Positions 4,981 to 24,561 of a DNA stretch of 64,000 nt are shown piece by piece. The DNA is taken from the NCBI RefSeq assembly GCF_001304615.2, contig NZ_CP032683.1, forward strand, positions 2,170,001-2,234,000, written 5' to 3'. This DNA comes from Methanosarcina flavescens. Its GTDB lineage: Archaea; Halobacteriota; Methanosarcinia; Methanosarcinales; Methanosarcinaceae. A model generated the notes under the pieces. That model did not search any database. It saw nothing but the letters and a program-made list of their open reading frames with translations, and had not been told where the DNA came from. Made by a program: the position numbers and the translations under genes. Each line of letters starts with the position of its first letter. Within the stretch, counting starts at the first letter, position 1.

Positions 4981-6468
4981 GTGGCAAAAAATAATGCAGT
5001 TGCAGGATTTAATGCACTTAATGGTGTAGAATTAAACCTTTTTACTAATGACGAACTTAAGGCAATTCACTATGCAACCATGGAAGTTCTGATGAACCCA
5101 GGTGTTCAGGTTTCTGATCCCGAAGCAAGGCAGATCTTCAAAGAAAATGGCTGCGAAGTCGACGAGAAAACCAACGTTGTAAAAATCCCTGAATATCTTG
5201 TAAGAAAAGCTCTTCAGCTTGCGCCTTCCAGATTTGTCCTCTGGGGCCGCGATAAAAAGAACAATACTGTCCAGGAATGTGGTGGTAAAGTGCACTGGAC
5301 CTGTTTCGGTACCGGTGTCAAGGTCTGCAAATACCAGGACGGCAAGTATGTAACAGTTGACTCCGTTGAGCAGGACATTGCAGATATCGCAAAACTCTGC
5401 GACTGGGCAGAGAACATTGACTACTTCTCACTACCAGTTTCTGCAAGGGACGTTGCAGGCCAGGGTGCACAGGATGTCCACGAAACCCTCACACCACTTG
5501 CAAACACCTCTAAACACTATCATCACATCGACCCCGTCGGCGAAAACGTCGAATATTACTGGGACATTGTAAAAGCATACTATGGCGGTGACGAAGAAGA
5601 GGCAAGGAAAAAACCGATTTTCTCCATGCTGCTCTGTCCGACCAGCCCGCTCGAACTCAGTGTCAATGCCTGCCAGGTTATTATTAAAGGCGCCCGTCTC
5701 GGAATTCCGGTTAACGTTCTGAGTATGGCAATGTCAGGCGGATCTTCTCCTGTTTATCTTGCAGGCACTCTTGTAACCCACAATGCCGAAGTGCTTTCAG
5801 GAATTGTGCTTGCCCAGTTGACTGTTCCAGGAAGCAAAGTCTGGTATGGAAGTTCCACAACTACCTTTGACCTGAAAAAAGGAACTGCTCCTGTCGGATC
5901 TCCTGAACTCGGCTTGATAAGCGGCGCTGTCGCGAAACTTGCCCAGTTCTATGGCCTACCCTCCTTTGTGGCAGGTTCCTAGTCTGATGCGAAGATCCCG
6001 GACAACCAGGCAGGACACGAAAAAACCATAACCACCCTCCTTCCAGCCCTTGCAGGAGCAAACACTATCTACGGAGCCGGAATGCTTGAGCTTGGAATGA
6101 CCTTCTCAATGGAGCAGCTGGTAATTGACAATGATATTATCAGTATGGTCAAGAAGGCTATGCAAGGAATTCCTGTCTCAGAAGAAACGTTGTCAGTGGA
6201 ATCCATCCAGAAAGTAGGCATCGGAAACAATTTCCTTGCCCTCAAACAGACCAGGCAGCTTATAGACTATCCTTCCAGCCCAATGCTCATTGACAGACGC
6301 ATGTATGGAGATTGGGCAGCAGCAGGCTCAAAAGATCTTGCAGCAGTTGCGCATGAAAAAGTAGAGGACATTCTTAAGAACCACCAGGTAAAACCAATTG
6401 ATGCAGATATCCTCAAGGATATGCAGGCTGTCGTGGACAGGGCTGATAAAGCCTTCAGAGGTATGTAA
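4981..6468 (+). CDS. mttB: trimethylamine methyltransferase MttB, pyrrolysine-containing
   Basis: MttB transfers a methyl group from trimethylamine to the Co(I) corrinoid of MttC, the entry step of TMA methanogenesis. The frame opens with GTG at 4981 after GGAGG and is interrupted by a single TAG at codon 334 (5980-5982), then continues in frame with [14 protein letters not shown] to the TAA at 6466-6468. Read through, the product is 495 residues, the exact family length, and the amber codon falls at the position of the catalytic pyrrolysine of M. barkeri MttB. Sequence on both sides of the TAG is equally conserved in character, so this is recoding and not decay. It lies 25 bases after mtbC and 25 before mttC, so the three genes are one operon. 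A standard gene caller will split it into a 333-codon gene and a 128-codon fragment starting at 6082. Confidence 0.97.
5980..5982 (+). other. in-frame amber codon read as pyrrolysine (Pyl334 of MttB)
   Basis: TAG inside mttB with uninterrupted coding on both sides. In MttB, Pyl is thought to bind and orient the methylamine for attack by Co(I). No equally close alternative stop follows, so termination here would yield a protein lacking its last third. Confidence 0.96.
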
Positions 6469-7701: not shown

Positions 7702-8676
7702 TTAATTTTTCCTCCTACAGAGCCTCAGAGTATGGCAACGCAGGCTACCTCCTCCCGCAAGCATGGCATCCGGGTGGAAAGGAATAATTTCAACGCCTTC
7801 TTTTTCAAGGTTTTTGGTGGTTTCTCGGTCAAGTGCGGTATCATAATGAAAAATAGTTCCACTTTCAAGAGGGACGAAAGAACAGGCCAGGCGACTTTGC
7901 TCGGAATCCGAAACAGGAATAATTTCCATCCCTTTTTCCTCCTGTATGAAAGTTTTAAAATCGATTTTTTTTCTGGAATCTTCCGTAAAGAGGCAAGTTT
8001 CCTCAAACGCAGGTAGATAAGCAAGGGCAAGATCTTCCCGCACTCGATTGAATACAGTATCTGGGTGCATATATCGCCTGGCTTTCGGAACCCGGGTATA
8101 AATAACCTCATCAAACTCTTTCAGAATGTTTGAAATAAATTCCCGGATAAAAGGATAAGTATGTCTTTCCGTATCAGCTACAAATATTGTTTCTTTTGAG
8201 AGCAGAAGGCAGCCTTCGAAAAAACCCTCTCCTTCATTAAATTCACTGAGAATTGGGATCCCCAGATTATTCAGGGCTTCCTTTACAACAATATCTTCAT
8301 TTTGTCGTGCAGGTGGGCGCATTCTTGAGAGAATAGCCCCTTTGCCTGAGATAACCGCAATATCATGAAGAAAAGTTAGATTTGGCAGTTTCTTAATCTG
8401 ATCTTTATTCTCATCCACGTAATCTTCAAGCTCATAGACCTTGACACCGTTTGATTCAAGCAACTCCTGATAACTTTTGTGTTCTTTGATATATCCCGAG
8501 ATCTCAGGAACCTTATCGTAAAGCCAGTACTCATAATTCGATTCGTTGATCAGGGACAGTTCTTCTCCTGGTGTGTGTATTAATACACTTTTCAGCCTGC
8601 CAAGCTCATCGCACCCATAAGCTATATCTTGCTTTGTTTTCTCGTTTCTGCCCAGTTCCTCTATCTCGCAACCCAT
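7702..8676 (-). CDS. arginine-deiminase/amidinotransferase-fold protein
   Basis: A 324-residue protein of the guanidino-group modifying superfamily. Residues about 22-42 (DELGRLKSVLIHTPGEE) match the opening of arginine deiminase. The catalytic His is in MHPDTVFNRV and the nucleophilic Cys is in GGGSLRCHTLRL near the C-terminus. In deiminases an Asp in an EGGD-type motif clamps the guanidinium; the corresponding place here reads FFEGCLLLS, so one substrate-binding Asp appears to be missing and arginine may not be the substrate. It is last in a three-gene minus-strand operon, 45 bases after the EgtD-like methyltransferase, downstream of a radical SAM protein. There is no ornithine carbamoyltransferase or carbamate kinase nearby, which argues against an energy-yielding ADI pathway. 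A role in a biosynthetic pathway is inference. Confidence 0.75.
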   Translation of the reverse strand: MGCEIEELGRNEKTKQDIAYGCDELGRLKSVLIHTPGEELSLINESNYEYWLYDKVPEISGYIKEHKSYQELLESNGVKVYELEDYVDENKDQIKKLPNLTFLHDIAVISGKGAILSRMRPPARQNEDIVVKEALNNLGIPILSEFNEGEGFFEGCLLLSKETIFVADTERHTYPFIREFISNILKEFDEVIYTRVPKARRYMHPDTVFNRVREDLALAYLPAFEETCLFTEDSRKKIDFKTFIQEEKGMEIIPVSDSEQSRLACSFVPLESGTIFHYDTALDRETTKNLEKEGVEIIPFHPDAMLAGGGSLRCHTLRLCRRKN

Positions 8677-8721
8677 ACCCCAAACCTCCTTTTGATTAAT
8701 TTCTTTCTGGTTAGTGTCATT

Positions 8722-9675
8722 TCATGTACTTCTTTTTGCAAGGATTATAGTATTTGTCCGGTCTTCACTCAAGAAAGCCTTGAGGATATCGAATCCGCAA
8801 ATATCCAGAAAAGCCGTAATCTGGTCACAGGTATACTTGTAAGTAAAACCCATACGAATGACATCTCCTCTCCTGAAGCGTATGACCTCTGCTCCAATTG
8901 TAATTTCAGAATCTCTCAGGATATGCAGATTCTTCCTGGTTCTGCACACTGATCCTATCCTTGAATCTACATGTGCAAGCAGGAGTTCAAAATCGAGGTC
9001 TTCAGGGTTCATCCCATAATGAAGCAGAGGGTACATATTGAAGAGCGTATTCTCTCTTGAGGCATATGTGCCAAGTATGGATTTCCTTGCAGATTGTGCT
9101 TCCAGACCTTCAGCAGGGAGAAGGCTGGCATCAAAGAGAAATAGGTCTCCCGACTCAAGAGTTTTACGGACAAGCTGAAGAATGAATTCTGGCTCGTAAT
9201 TGCAAAAGGTGTTTCCCAGAATGCAGAAAAGAACCGGCAAGCGCCAGTTCTTTTTAAAGGTTGCTATATCCTCTATGAAGCCAACTACTCCTCTCTTTTC
9301 GACAGGCAGGTTCCTGACCCTCGCAAGGGCAAGATCCACAAATTCGCTGTTTATATCAACAGGATAATAGCATATCGGTACTTCTCCTGAACCTGGGGTT
9401 TCAGCCAGATTTTTCCTTATGAGTGCTTTGAGAAGAAGTTCCTCCTTTTCTCCACTTCCCACTCCAACACTTACGAGGCTCATGCCTGTCGGAATAAATC
9501 TCAATATTGATTCAAGATTTTTCTCCAGAAGGGTTTTGAGCTGCCTGGCTACAGGAAATGTCCTGGCCCTGTCAAGTTCCAGCCAGTTTTTTGTTCCGCC
9601 GGCTCCTGTATATAAGAGATAATCAGGAAGTTCGTGATTCTTCAGGTATTCAAAGAGTTTTTTCTCTATCCCCAT
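8722..9675 (-). CDS. EgtD-like amino-acid N-alpha-methyltransferase (Methyltransf_33 family)
   Basis: A 317-residue SAM-dependent methyltransferase. SVGVGSGEKEELLLKAL (about residues 67-83) is the SAM-binding glycine loop, and YYPVDINSEFVDLAL matches the acidic strand-2 region, both in the arrangement of EgtD/DUF2260 proteins. FCILGNTFCNYEP corresponds to the LGxxxGN region after strand 4. EgtD itself trimethylates the alpha-amino group of histidine in ergothioneine synthesis; no EgtB-like sulfoxide synthase is present here, so ergothioneine is not implied. It sits between a radical SAM/SPASM gene (165 bases upstream) and a deiminase-fold gene (45 bases downstream) on the same strand. The family call is fairly secure; the substrate is unknown. 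Confidence 0.78.
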   Translation of the reverse strand: MGIEKKLFEYLKNHELPDYLLYTGAGGTKNWLELDRARTFPVARQLKTLLEKNLESILRFIPTGMSLVSVGVGSGEKEELLLKALIRKNLAETPGSGEVPICYYPVDINSEFVDLALARVRNLPVEKRGVVGFIEDIATFKKNWRLPVLFCILGNTFCNYEPEFILQLVRKTLESGDLFLFDASLLPAEGLEAQSARKSILGTYASRENTLFNMYPLLHYGMNPEDLDFELLLAHVDSRIGSVCRTRKNLHILRDSEITIGAEVIRFRRGDVIRMGFTYKYTCDQITAFLDICGFDILKAFLSEDRTNTIILAKRST

Positions 9676-9840
9676 CTTGCTGGTAATTACTATCTTTTCC
9701 TTATTTTCCGAAACCTATCCAGACTCCGTTTTTCCTGTACTGCTCAATTCTCACCTTACCCCCAAACCATTCAACAGCACTTATGTTAGATCACTTCTTT
9801 CAACCTCTTGCCTGAACTCTGCTTTTTCCCATCCTGCAGT

Positions 9841-10983
9841 TTATTTGAAACACTGCTGGCACTCCATTCTCAGGGCTTCGAGAGGGTCGGCACCATTGTT
9901 TACTCCTATGCTGTAGGCATATCCCCGGCAGCCTATGCACTCTTCCATATGTTCACAGTTCCTGCATCTTCCCTCAAGCACTTTATCGATGTTTCGGACA
10001 TATGTGAAGAGATCAGAATAATAAATCTCCCGAAGGCTCATTTTGTTTATATTGTAGGGATATTCCCCGTCAACTCTGAGCGCAGGATGTACATCAAGCT
10101 TTGTAGGCGCACAGGGCCGGACATTCCCTTCTATGTTGATATACAGGCTGTAAAGATGCTGAAGGCAACCGCTCGCAGTAATCGGTGTGTAGGGCAGCCA
10201 GTCGTACCCGTAATACTTACGGTCAATTTCCAGCAGTTTTAACTTATATTCCTTTATCTCGTCAGCTGTCAGCAGCTTATCCTCGAGTTCATTATTTGCC
10301 CTGCCTGTCGGCGTTAGAATCTCCATATTGGGGAAGATATTGTTTTGCCTGCAGAAATGCCAGATCTCTTCTATCTCTCCCAGATTCATTTTATTACTGA
10401 CGAAAGAAACTCCCAGGCGGAGCTCCCCAGGCCCTGCCGGCTTTGAAAAGCCTGCTTTAAGAAGGTTTTCAAGCCCTTTTCTGATCTTTTCTGAGGCTCC
10501 TTCTTTCCCTGCCAGATAATCCTGAACTTCAGGCTTAAGGGAATCCAGCTTTCCCATTACTGAGACGTTGTGTTCGTGCAGGAATCCTGCAAGTTCCTCA
10601 GTTATTAAAACAGTATTCGAGAAAATTACAGAGATTAATCCCAGGGAATCAATATAAGCAACCAGATCTCTGAAATTCGGATGCAGTGTCGGTTCTCCCC
10701 CTCCTATCACGACCACGGACCTGATCCCCAGTTCTTTTGCTGCCGAAACTATCTGTTTGAGGGAACTGAAATCTGCTATTTTTGCCGAATCCTCTCCACT
10801 CTGTGCATAGCAGTAGCGGCAGCGAAGGTTACATGATTTGTTCGTTTCAAGGCGTATGGCTAAAAGTCTATTTGAGTTACGAGCCTCACGGGCCTCCTGC
10901 GCCCCATACATATAGCCCTTCAATATCGGAGGCGGTAAAAAAGGACTTAATGCGCCAGAGTTCTTCGATTCTTCCTTCCGCAT
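9841..10983 (-). CDS. radical SAM/SPASM protein, first gene of the EgtD-like operon
   Basis: A 380-residue radical SAM enzyme. The SAM-cluster motif C-x3-C-x2-C is seen in CNLRCRYCYAQSGEDS (about residues 53-62), the GGEP motif in VVIGGGEPTLHPNF (about residue 95). The C-terminal part carries a Cys-rich SPASM-type region: GCLQHLYSLYINIEGNVRPC, then GRCRNCEHMEECIGCRGYAYSIG and a final CQQC, enough for one or two auxiliary 4Fe-4S clusters. Such enzymes modify peptides or small molecules by radical chemistry. No small precursor peptide gene was seen beside it. ATG 10983 is the best start; the gene is divergent from the membrane protein at 11229. As first gene of the operon it probably initiates the pathway with the EgtD-like and deiminase-like enzymes. 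Confidence 0.85.
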   Translation of the reverse strand: MRKEESKNSGALSPFLPPPILKGYMYGAQEAREARNSNRLLAIRLETNKSCNLRCRYCYAQSGEDSAKIADFSSLKQIVSAAKELGIRSVVVIGGGEPTLHPNFRDLVAYIDSLGLISVIFSNTVLITEELAGFLHEHNVSVMGKLDSLKPEVQDYLAGKEGASEKIRKGLENLLKAGFSKPAGPGELRLGVSFVSNKMNLGEIEEIWHFCRQNNIFPNMEILTPTGRANNELEDKLLTADEIKEYKLKLLEIDRKYYGYDWLPYTPITASGCLQHLYSLYINIEGNVRPCAPTKLDVHPALRVDGEYPYNINKMSLREIYYSDLFTYVRNIDKVLEGRCRNCEHMEECIGCRGYAYSIGVNNGADPLEALRMECQQCFK

Positions 10984-11228
10984 ATTAAAACCTATATTTG
11001 GCGTCCCTTATCAAGTTGTAAGAAACTAAGTGCTTTTTAAGTATGATCTCCTACTGAAAAAAAGTAGTGTACTGCCAGTAAAAGATATGTTCCAGTTACT
11101 CTGGTTTCGTTTCGTAAAGCATTTAATGCAATCTACAAATTCATAAATATTCTTCTTGTTAAATTGAGTAAGGTTTAATTCTCTTTTTCACATATCTGTT
11201 TTCAATATTTCTGGGAGGGTAACTGACA

Positions 11229-12059
11229 ATGAACAGGAACATAACAATTCTTGGAGGATTTGCGTTCTTTATTCTCCTGTTGTTTTTATTGTGTTCAATA
11301 CATCTGGAAAATAGATACGAGGAAATGTACAATGACAGTCTCATGAGCAATTATGAATACGATATAACTATAGAAAGTAACAGAACGCTGAAAAATGTAA
11401 TATTATACTTACCTGTTCCGGTTTTTGAAAATGAATCCAAGATCGGACTGGAAATGGTAGAAGGAAACTATTACAATAAACCTTTCGAATGGAATCTCAG
11501 CCTTGAAGATACTGAGTATGGATTAATGTTCAAAATAGAAGCTGCCGAAATTCGACCGATTTATCATTCCCTTCCTGTAGCTGTACCCGAGCCTGAGCCT
11601 GGATCCGAGAATATTGAAGATGAGGATCTGGAAAAGAATCAGATAGTGGAGTCCACTGAATATTCGGAAGAGACCCCAGTTCTGATACCAATTGATTTTG
11701 GAACCTCTTTAAAGGTTGACCACCTGATTAATACCAGATTTCCTGTTGGCAATGAATCCCTGCTCCTGCCTAAATATAACCTGCGAGAATCCGAAGAAGA
11801 CCCAGTGCTTCCTCTACATGAGCATGTCAATCCCGAATATTTTGATTACGAAAGCCTGGTATATGCTCATTATGATACGTCTTCTGATGCCGATGTTCAG
11901 ATTTTTGTCCGGATGAACGGTCGAAATGAATGGTGGATTTACGGTTGGAAATATAATGACTACAGTGATGGAATTTCTGTTCGGCTTTCAGGCCCGCAGG
12001 AAGGCTGGATCCAGGCAGAAGGGAAACTTGTTACAGGAGATGGAGTTTACAGAGAATAA
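11229..12059 (+). CDS. membrane-anchored extracytoplasmic protein, unknown function
   Basis: A 276-residue protein with a single N-terminal hydrophobic helix (ITILGGFAFFILLLFLLCSI, residues about 5-24) and an acidic ectodomain rich in Glu/Pro (PEPEPGSENIEDEDLEKN around residue 122). Several N-x-S/T sequons occur (NDS, NRT, NES, NLS), compatible with surface glycosylation. The C-terminal part (VRMNGRNEWWIYGWKYNDYSDGISV) looks like a beta-strand domain. Not recognised as a named family; similar lineage-specific surface proteins are common in Methanosarcina. ATG 11229 follows GGGAGG. It is divergent from the radical SAM operon and separated by 90 bases from the SPL-like gene. Confidence 0.7.
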   Translation: MNRNITILGGFAFFILLLFLLCSIHLENRYEEMYNDSLMSNYEYDITIESNRTLKNVILYLPVPVFENESKIGLEMVEGNYYNKPFEWNLSLEDTEYGLMFKIEAAEIRPIYHSLPVAVPEPEPGSENIEDEDLEKNQIVESTEYSEETPVLIPIDFGTSLKVDHLINTRFPVGNESLLLPKYNLRESEEDPVLPLHEHVNPEYFDYESLVYAHYDTSSDADVQIFVRMNGRNEWWIYGWKYNDYSDGISVRLSGPQEGWIQAEGKLVTGDGVYRE

Positions 12060-12149
12060 TCCAATTATTTTTTCCAGGAAGCAGATTGTATAACTCATGG
12101 TTCTGATTCTCTTAAGTTTATTATGGTTTTATCTCTATCTTACTAAGAG

Positions 12150-13109
12150 ATGTTTGAGGAAATCGAGGTTAAAAAAGCTCTGAACCGGATAAAAGATACT
12201 GGCAGAATCACATTACCATTCCACTGGGATCTCAATATCTACAGGGGATGTGAACATGGTTGCAACTACTGCTACGAAATGTATTCTCACCGCTATCTGG
12301 AAAAAGAAGAAATGAACTCTTCTCCGGTTAAAGAACCTCCAGGGGCAAAAAACTGTGCTTTTTTTCAGAGAATCTGCGTAAAAACAAATATTGCAGAAGC
12401 CCTTGAGAAACAGCTTGGAGCAAAAAGCTAGAAAAAAGAAGTAATCAATATAGGGGGAGTATGCGATAGTTATCAGCCTGCAGAAGCGGAGTACGGATTA
12501 ATGCGCCAGGTTCTACTGCTGATGATAAAATATCGGAATCCGGTTATGATTTCTACAAAATCCGACCTTATTCTCAGGGACTTCGATCTTCTTAAAGAGC
12601 TTGCTGAACTTACATATGTAAATATTGCAGTCACGGTTACGACAATAAATGAGGATTTAAGTGCCCTGCTGGAACCCTTTGCCTCGTCTCCAATAAAGCG
12701 ATTTTCGATCCTCAGGGCATTTAAAAATACAGCTGCTGTTACCGGACTTCACATGATGCCGATTCTTCCTTTTCTTACAGACAACCCTCAGAATCTGGAG
12801 CAAATTCTTTCTCTTGCAGCCGAGTGTGAGGTGGATTATGCCCTGCCAGGCATTCTTTACTTGAGGGGCGATACCAGAAAGCATTTCTTCGACTTTCTTG
12901 AGCTCAAATTTCCCGAACTTGTGGATCCATACTGCAAGCTGTATGCAAAAGGAGGAGCTGATGGTGCGTATAAAGCTGAACTTTATGGAGTGCTCAATTC
13001 TCTTATGGAAAGATACGATCTGTCCGGAAATTACATGAAACCCATGCAGATGAAACTTTCCCGCCCGAAGCAACTTAAACTCACTGATTTTCACGAAAAT
13101 TCAATGTAG
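12150..13109 (+). CDS. SPL-like radical SAM protein interrupted by an in-frame TAG at codon 94
   Basis: Two collinear frames in the same phase are separated by one TAG (12429-12431). The first part (residues 1-93) carries the radical SAM motif [16 protein letters not shown]; the second continues [20 protein letters not shown], the next conserved block of spore-photolyase-like radical SAM proteins, and then [12 protein letters not shown]. Read through, the product has 319 residues, a plausible family length. In homologs the block reads as S-W-K-(K/R)-E-V, so TAG replaces a conserved Trp (TGG to TAG, one transition). In an organism with Pyl-tRNA this can be decoded as pyrrolysine; otherwise it is a nonsense-mutated gene. 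No other lesion was seen, which favours a working gene. The start ATG 12150 has no clear ribosome site and a TATA-like run is about 30 bases upstream, suggesting a leaderless message. Confidence 0.8.
12429..12431 (+). other. in-frame TAG (candidate pyrrolysine codon) in the SPL-like gene
   Basis: TAG follows GCAAAAAGC and is followed by AAAAAAGAAGTAATC, giving AKS-TAG-KKEVI. The frame stays open for the next 225 codons with family-consistent sequence. A Trp is expected at this position from remembered homologs. Confidence 0.75.
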
Positions 13110-14887
13110 TTCACATATACGCTATAAGTATGCCTGTTCTCTATCCAGAAAGTAACTGAATTATCCTGCTCTATATTGTAACTGATAAACTTCCCTGATG
13201 TATTATCGTAAACCAGTGTATTTTTTCCGGCCTTTATGTTTACATTTACAAGAGCAATGGCTCCGTTTGTGTGTGCATCAAAAGTGACAGAGTGTTCAGT
13301 ATATCGCAGTTTTTCAAAAGAGGCATCAAATGTGTTTCGGTTTATTTGACCATATTCATAAAAAGATACTATGGATATATTATTTGAATTGTAGTTATCT
13401 ACCCAACTTCTAAATTTTGAACTGCTGATTGAGTATTTTATAGCAGGATCCTTATCAAGTTCGTGGGTAAAAACAGGGTGTATCATACCTGCTTTGGATG
13501 CTTTTTCCCACCATTCCCAGGTAGTATCGTCCAGATTCCCAATATCTCTTTCCGCATGGATTCCCGAGTCTCCATTTCTCCAGAACATCCCTAAGTTTTC
13601 GTATGCATAGATAGCATGTGCAACAGTATCTTTATTTCTCATGGAGCACCAGCTTGTTGGCTTTCTCCCGATTTTCTCATAAACATAGGAATACCCCTTA
13701 TCTATTACTTTATATGCCTCTTCAAGTGGGAGGCTATTCAACTCTTCAGAGTAATGTACTCCTACATCCCACGAATCGTTAATGACCAGACTGCGGAGGT
13801 ATTCAAGATCGGTTTCACTGCATTGCTCAAGGAGCTCTATGTCAAACCATATAGTTCCTATATTATTTTTGCTATTGAGGTAACGTATACCCTGTTCTGT
13901 TGTACTTCTAACATGTGGCCCATCAAGTCCAAAAGCCAGTATCCTGTTGCTTCCAATCGCAGTTACGAGCTTACGGTCTGCTGTCTGACCAATGCTGTAT
14001 AAATCAACATCTAGGTACGTACCTTTTCCAGCTATAAAAGAGGTGAATTTGATGTATCCGTTTGAAAAATCAATATATGGTAATCTCTGCCTGTCGGTGC
14101 TATAAAATGGGGTTACGATAAAGCTGCCGTCATTTGCGCAGATAGTGTTAGTTTTATTGTACCCGTCAAACTTGATTTCGAAATCAAATTTCTCTGCCGC
14201 ATTCCCGACACATATGGTTTTAGACCTAATCTCCTCAGAAGAGTCTTTAAAATAGCTTCTTAGTACGATATTATCATTATCTATTTTTTGGATAATCAAC
14301 TTTGAACCCGGGCTATTGAGCTCAACAAAACTTTGAAGATCGTCCGTTTTTATATTCATCGAGATTTGATACGTACATTTAACCATTGGTATAAGCCCGC
14401 AAATGTAAAGTGATCCAGTTTGCCTCTGCTGTTCCCTGTAGTGAATTAAAGATATAAAAGCAGCTTCACAGAACCTGTAAGTCTCTAGAGATTTTGTTAA
14501 ATCTACTGTATATCCGTTTACTCCAGACTGTAAAATAGTATCTACAATGGGAAATAAACTGTAAGGAAATAAGCAGGAGTCTCTTGCGGTTTTATAATTT
14601 AGTGCTTTTGAAGTAATGAGAGAAATCTCTGATTTCAATGTCCCGTAAATTGCAGAATATAGTTTATCATATATCTTATTACCTTGAAGTTTTGCAATAA
14701 AAATATTATTCGGGACACTGTTAGTTTCAGTGTAATTTTGTGAAAATAAATTGAGAATGCCCTGATCAGGATTTTCACAGATTTTTAAAGTGTTTTTGTC
14801 CATTAAAGTTTTACTTCCTTCCACATATAAACTACTTGACATAGATAACGTGGGAAAAAATATTTCTAGATGGCTACTGCTCTTCAC
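13091..14887 (-). CDS. large protein with polysaccharide-deacetylase-like C-terminal half
   Basis: A 598-residue protein. The first 300 residues show no recognisable motif. In the second half, TIWFDIELL, then [20 protein letters not shown] and [15 protein letters not shown] resemble the core of NodB-type polysaccharide deacetylases (the W-[DE]-[IV]-G-x-H strand followed by a helix and G-x-K-P), although the metal-binding His pair is not obvious. The last 80 residues ([20 protein letters not shown]...) look like a beta-sandwich. No signal peptide is evident from the GTG start at 14887; an alternative ATG is at 14803. Its tail overlaps the convergent SPL-like gene by 19 bases. Next to a methyltransferase, a GT4 glycosyltransferase and a flippase-like protein, a role in surface polysaccharide is plausible but inferred. 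Confidence 0.5.
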
Positions 14888-23742: not shown

Positions 23743-24561
23743 TTACCTGAGAGTTAGTCCCTCAAGAGCCAGTGTATACTCTTTATTCGTTTCACTGTAG
23801 CTCAAGGAGTAACTTGTGGGATAATAGGAACTTGTCGGATAACATTTCGGAAGCTTGAGTTCTTTTGTTACCTCTGGTTTTGTCTCAAGGAAAGCTATTG
23901 TAACCATAGGTTCGACAAAAACCATTTCCCCGTTATAAAACCCATAAATAAAAGTCTCATTAAAAGGCTGTCCGTTAAACTCAGGAGCTTTCGGGTCTAT
24001 CCAGTGTGCTCCCATTCTGGGCACTCCTCCTGGCGTGGGAACATATCCCTCCGGAATATATTCTGATGCCGGCATTTTTGATAAGTTCTTACAATCTTCC
24101 CCGGTCGCTGTGATCTTATCTCTTTCCTCAGGGGTTATCATGTAAAAATGAACATCAAAGTGCGGCTTATCATAAATTCCCTGAGGTTCATGTCCATGAG
24201 GATTCCAGTCAATCCCAATGTGGTTATAAGCTGTGGAAGCAGCTTCTTCCGGCAGAGAAAGTGTGTACTCCACAGTTCTTCCTTCAGGATGTCCTTCCAG
24301 AGCTGATTCTGTAAAGTTTACTCCTATTGACGAGGGATTTCCTTCATTGTCAAGCTTAACCCAGGAATAAGCAACTCCGCTGCCCAGGGTTTTACTTTCC
24401 CCCTCAAACATTCCCATTTGAGGTGGCTTAACAAAGCATTTTTCTTTTTGTTGTTGGGTCTCCGCCATTGCACAGCCGGAAAAGAGAACAGCAACTACCG
24501 TGAGTATACAGAAATAACATGTCAATTTTCTTCCCTTCGTATTACTCCCCCCACATAGCAT
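23743..24561 (-). CDS. secreted lipoprotein, probably DUF5602-type
   Basis: A protein of up to 272 residues with an N-terminal signal ending in a lipobox (VVAVLFSGCAMA, Cys about residue 30), so it is exported and probably lipid-anchored. The mature part includes DWNPHGHEP and KPHFDVHFYMITPEERD, a His-rich metal-binding-looking region seen in DUF5602/TTHB210-like proteins. No enzymatic function is known. Its 3' end lies 25 bases from the MITE. The precise start is unsure: ATG 24559-24561 opens the frame, but a strong GGGGGGAG lies just inside it. It is on the same strand as, and 36 bases after, the iscU-like gene, so it may be the last gene of that operon. Confidence 0.65.
   Translation of the reverse strand: MLCGGSNTKGRKLTCYFCILTVVAVLFSGCAMAETQQQKEKCFVKPPQMGMFEGESKTLGSGVAYSWVKLDNEGNPSSIGVNFTESALEGHPEGRTVEYTLSLPEEAASTAYNHIGIDWNPHGHEPQGIYDKPHFDVHFYMITPEERDKITATGEDCKNLSKMPASEYIPEGYVPTPGGVPRMGAHWIDPKAPEFNGQPFNETFIYGFYNGEMVFVEPMVTIAFLETKPEVTKELKLPKCYPTSSYYPTSYSLSYSETNKEYTLALEGLTLR

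Follow-up and report, generated by a model that had tools for sequence, protein, structure and literature searches.

A private in-frame amber codon in a radical SAM gene of Methanosarcina flavescens: a candidate for leaky pyrrolysine decoding of the Thg1 kind

The methyltransferase genes MtmB, MtbB and MttB carry in-frame TAG codons that are read as pyrrolysine in the species studied (PMC2933860, in the part of the text available). As far as the accessible parts of the two sources go, the position of the codon is conserved across species and the pyrrolysine lies in the active site (PMC2933860, PMC8211752). Thg1 of M. acetivorans, a pyrrolysine-decoding Methanosarcina, is described in excerpts of the first of these papers as having an in-frame amber codon in one species and a sense codon in its orthologs; there, pyrrolysine has been physically observed in the protein and is not essential for its activity (PMC2933860). 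The same excerpts report that a UAG introduced into a reporter gene of M. acetivorans gives 20-30% full-length product (PMC2933860).

Here we describe an amber codon in the genome of Methanosarcina flavescens (G000; 3.28 Mb, one contig) that resembles the one in Thg1. The gene that carries it lies in the window we analyzed, by which we mean the whole 64,000-nucleotide stretch G000:C1:2170001-2234000. As in Thg1, an in-frame TAG is private to one lineage of a pyrrolysine-decoding Methanosarcina, and the orthologs have a sense codon; in Thg1 the pyrrolysine has been observed, whereas here it is a prediction. It differs from MtmB, MtbB and MttB, whose genes also have in-frame TAG codons in M. flavescens, in that the TAG is private rather than conserved in position across species and lies in a predicted loop. 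An earlier note on this DNA had proposed that the Thg1 pattern occurs here in a different gene. The private TAG, the TGG of the orthologs and the complete pyl set agree with that proposal, and they make the gene a candidate addition to the Thg1 kind. Our literature search turned up no paper that reports a TAG in this gene.

The gene occupies positions 12150-13109 of the plus strand and has 319 codons when its TAG is read through. Translation confirmed what the earlier note had reported, namely a single inner stop, the TAG at codon 94 (12429-12431, plus strand), with 225 sense codons beyond it. The frame ends in a terminal TAG (13107-13109, plus strand) that is common to the closest relative, G028, and an in-frame TAA downstream, at 13125-13127, forms a backup stop. 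The description of the product as an SPL-like radical SAM protein is borne out by profile matches and by the best fold match of a structural model. The read-through frame matches PF04055 in Pfam (E 8.4e-10); either half of the frame searched alone has zero Pfam matches at E 0.001. The protein contains a CxxxCxxC motif (Cys34-Cys38-Cys41; 12249-12272, plus strand) that is invariant in a 32-sequence alignment; in the radical SAM superfamily this motif binds the 4Fe-4S cluster. Motif and profile match together place the protein in that superfamily. Its nearest NCBIfam families are rSAM_Rv2578c (E 2.9e-62; 210.5 of 430 bits) and rSAM_PA0069 (E 5.7e-53; 180.1 of 360 bits), but both scores fall under the curated cut-offs, and by this measure the protein would belong to neither family.

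An AlphaFold2 model built from 32 sequences (mean pLDDT 87, pTM 0.85) has spore photoproduct lyase structures, at 11-12% identity, as its top fold matches in the PDB, the best being 4fhg (TM 0.56 to the query). A PDB sequence search with the protein returned zero matches at E 0.1. The cysteine motif, the fold match and the NCBIfam matches are what the protein has in common with spore photoproduct lyase, Rv2578c and PA0069; however, for lack of a sequence relationship, the likeness to spore photoproduct lyase appears to be one of fold only, and the protein would not count as a spore photoproduct lyase proper. The term SPL-like holds as a statement about the predicted fold and says nothing on substrate or reaction. 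We also considered an open reading frame after the TAG (202 amino acids from an ATG; 12501-13109, plus strand). A restart at ATG 12501 was rejected as the source of a radical SAM enzyme, as its product would be without the cluster motif.

By its relatives the genome belongs to Methanosarcina. In a codon alignment, each of the 20 other near-full-length orthologs from Methanosarcina has TGG at codon 94; 19 of these came from a search of 30 Methanosarcina genomes, 24 of which (M. flavescens included) have a match to the gene, and one is a locus from a separate search. Broken or divergent copies in G002, G014, G021 and G022 likewise have Trp at position 94. In G028 the gene is 93% identical, with TGG at codon 94, and both halves around the TAG align continuously with it, so the TAG lies within one real gene and is not a chance occurrence. 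Because all 20 orthologs, the nearest relative among them, have TGG, a single lineage-specific TGG to TAG transition explains the codon. This is the change that the earlier note had supposed; the comparison for TGG, which it recommended for close strains, gave TGG in these orthologs from other genomes.

The note's further claim, that homologs have Trp at this position, holds within Methanosarcina and for six bacterial homologs among the 20 loci compared outside the genus, but it fails for the other loci, which have F, R, M, K, D or A; F and R are found in a sister genus of the same family. Position 94 is thus, as judged from these alignments, not intrinsically Trp. Since basic residues occur there in homologs, a lysine derivative is plausible, and pyrrolysine at residue 94 could be tolerated by the protein. 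In the AlphaFold2 model, residue 94 lies in the loop that leads from helix 81-89 into the next strand.

M. flavescens has the complete machinery for pyrrolysine biosynthesis and decoding: PylS, PylB, PylC and PylD all score above the NCBIfam cut-offs, and a tRNA-Pyl with anticodon CUA adjoins the pyl genes. In addition, its MtmB gene, two Dimeth_Pyl genes and two MTTB genes have one inner TAG apiece, and the view of this organism as a pyrrolysine-decoding archaeon is therefore well founded. Given the pyl cassette and the methyltransferases with inner TAG, leaky decoding of the codon as pyrrolysine is expected on mechanistic grounds. UAG also ends genes here: of 571 ORFs sampled in M. flavescens, 30 have TAG as their stop. 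The coexistence of inner-TAG pyrrolysine genes and TAG-ended ORFs implies that UAG decoding is probably ambiguous in M. flavescens; other archaea, in a paper from 2025, are said to read all TAG as pyrrolysine. One of the two MTTB matches is within the window, a trimethylamine methyltransferase gene (mttB) of the known pyrrolysine kind at 4981-6468 on the plus strand, with its inner TAG at 5980-5982; it lies apart from the pyl cassette and about 6 kb from the SPL-like gene. In pylB (L051 8224-9339, minus strand) the model match extends to residue 348 and a TAG stands at codon 351. UAG probably serves as the stop of this gene, as it does in M. mazei and M. acetivorans according to the accessible part of PMC2933860.

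An Rfam search of the pyl stretch gave zero matches. When the 100 nt of mRNA 3' of the TAG in the SPL-like gene were folded, the z score was -0.50 and 60 of 200 shuffles were as good; a PYLIS-like structure after the TAG was rejected, since the sequence folds no better than its shuffles.

The explanation we favor, with a probability of roughly 0.58, is that the SPL-like gene carries a neutral, leaky amber allele, like Thg1 in M. acetivorans. A recent lineage-specific TGG to TAG transition would have occurred in a dispensable gene of a pyrrolysine-decoding Methanosarcina. Some ribosomes at the UAG of codon 94 would then terminate and release a fragment of 93 residues, which should have no activity; others would use tRNA-Pyl to insert pyrrolysine and go on to the full-length protein, the minority product. 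Because residue 94 is in a helix-to-strand loop and has other residues in relatives, the pyrrolysine form probably folds, and the mutation would be near neutral. We infer that the allele is transcribed and read in part as pyrrolysine, and that it is probably close to neutral and may be functional. If the full-length pyrrolysine protein is made, this would be one more natural example of what is seen in Thg1, and it would show ambiguous UAG decoding letting nonsense mutations drift outside methylamine metabolism. Annotation pipelines may label such amber genes pseudogenes.

Could pyrrolysine at residue 94 instead have a selected function, either catalytic or as a switch restricting production of the enzyme to times when methylamines induce the pyl genes? 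The closeness of the TAG-bearing mttB gene would fit such a function, as would the condition-dependent use of pyrrolysine in Acetohalobium (cited in PMC8211752, in the part available). Nevertheless, we consider it extremely unlikely: TAG stands at codon 94 in no other aligned ortholog, and the residue is predicted to sit in a barrel loop that joins helix to strand, which by topology would be on the opposite face from the cluster. Helix-to-strand loops of this barrel fold generally point away from the cluster. That the amber codon acts as a conditional switch, giving full enzyme only when pyrrolysine is abundant, i.e. during growth on methylamines, is likewise very unlikely; if true, a chance mutation would have made a tailoring enzyme dependent on the pyrrolysine supply.

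The serious rival to a neutral, leaky allele is incipient loss of the gene. According to this explanation the gene no longer matters in the lineage, the TAG is the first inactivating change and A43E perhaps the second, and any read-through by pyrrolysine is incidental; the TAG would then be an ordinary nonsense mutation. We regard this as possible, with a smaller though substantial chance of being right. Across Methanosarcina the gene is dispensable: it is decayed in G014 (several TAA/TGA stops) and in G022 (a frame change plus a TAA) and has no match in six of 30 genomes, three of which (G007, G016 and G023) are at least 90% complete. In this respect it differs from the Thg1 comparison case. 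The identity of the stop is weak evidence, since of the 13 single transitions that would create a stop here, eight create TAG, which makes it the likeliest outcome; this too would suit a gene on its way to loss. Codon 43 (GAA, Glu; 12276-12278, plus strand) adjoins the cluster motif. All 20 other Methanosarcina orthologs have Ala there, so that A43E is private to the M. flavescens sequence and may be a second inactivating hit. Against incipient loss, the private changes of the M. flavescens sequence at sites invariant in the others number two, within the range of 0 to 7 per sequence in the set, and its 319 codons contain zero frameshifts, zero inner TAA or TGA and no second inner stop.

A frameshift in the G002 copy was rejected as a sign of decay, four neighboring gene families in the same contig (L037) being split as well. 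That multiple adjoining genes are split in L037 suggests indel errors in that metagenome assembly.

Patterns of substitution also bear on incipient loss. Between M. flavescens and G028, dN/dS is 0.12 before codon 94 and 0.36 after it. The latter value does not exceed what intact close pairs show, two others of which in Methanosarcina give 0.26 and 0.38 for the same part of the gene, and this argues against loss. For the whole gene, dN/dS is 0.26; of 119 orthologous pairs compared, 110 had a defined value, and 24 of these are higher. Changes past codon 94 were assigned to a side by the majority of the other sequences: the M. flavescens side has 6 nonsynonymous and 6 synonymous changes, the G028 side has 9 nonsynonymous and 8 synonymous ones, and 6 changes were assigned to neither. 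Neither the dN/dS of this pair nor the branch counts give any sign of relaxed selection after codon 94. A test of the M. flavescens side against neutrality gave P between 0.04 and 0.14, depending on the transition bias, which is hardly a departure from neutral expectation; the test has low power and cannot date the TAG. Selection after codon 94 appears normal for this pair of species, although the TAG may postdate most of the changes, so this is not proof of continued function; the test is weak because the TAG may be very recent.

The SPL-like gene belongs to a neighborhood (7702-14887, with the last gene reaching 15662) that is kept in several Methanosarcina and is possibly a tailoring pathway. 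The gene order is arginine-deiminase-like, Methyltransf_33, radical SAM/SPASM, 276-aa protein, SPL-like gene, 598-aa and 234-aa. The G028 stretch lacks the arginine-deiminase-like and 276-aa genes and has a split methyltransferase gene, but its SPL-like gene is intact; in M. flavescens those three genes are intact and the SPL-like gene bears the TAG. Different genes have been hit in the two genomes, and thus the gene set erodes at different places in each species.

That the species has TGG, and that the TAG reflects a sequencing error or a mutation in the cultured strain, is quite unlikely. The TAG is indeed known from one genome, but that genome is a single contig, and assembly errors are unlikely to take the form of one substitution in a gene that is clean elsewhere. 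We also tested 349 orthologous ORFs in each direction between 800 kb stretches of M. flavescens and G028. In M. flavescens, 334 of the 349 had no inner stop, which indicates that the assembly is not error-ridden.

Among the 349 ORFs tested in each genome, those with a single inner stop divided into five TAG, one TAA and one TGA in M. flavescens, and two of each in G028. The excess of TAG over mutational expectation gave P values of 0.045-0.22 for M. flavescens and 0.10-0.50 for both genomes. By-eye reading covered part of the M. flavescens TAG cases, one of them (G028 1320177) without a proper alignment; apart from the SPL-like gene, the cases inspected look like spurious ORFs, which may be antisense, and like a ThiI-like gene extended at its 5' end. 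The excess was dropped as evidence of tolerance on account of this appearance.

A TTHB210-like gene in the window (23743-24561, minus strand) is intact in M. flavescens, with CAA at codon 36. In its G028 ortholog (near G028:C1:1593772; 95.6% identity), codon 36 is TAG, in frame and just past an apparent signal peptide, and dN/dS after the G028 stop is 0.13. The G028 gene is a candidate for a reciprocal amber gene.
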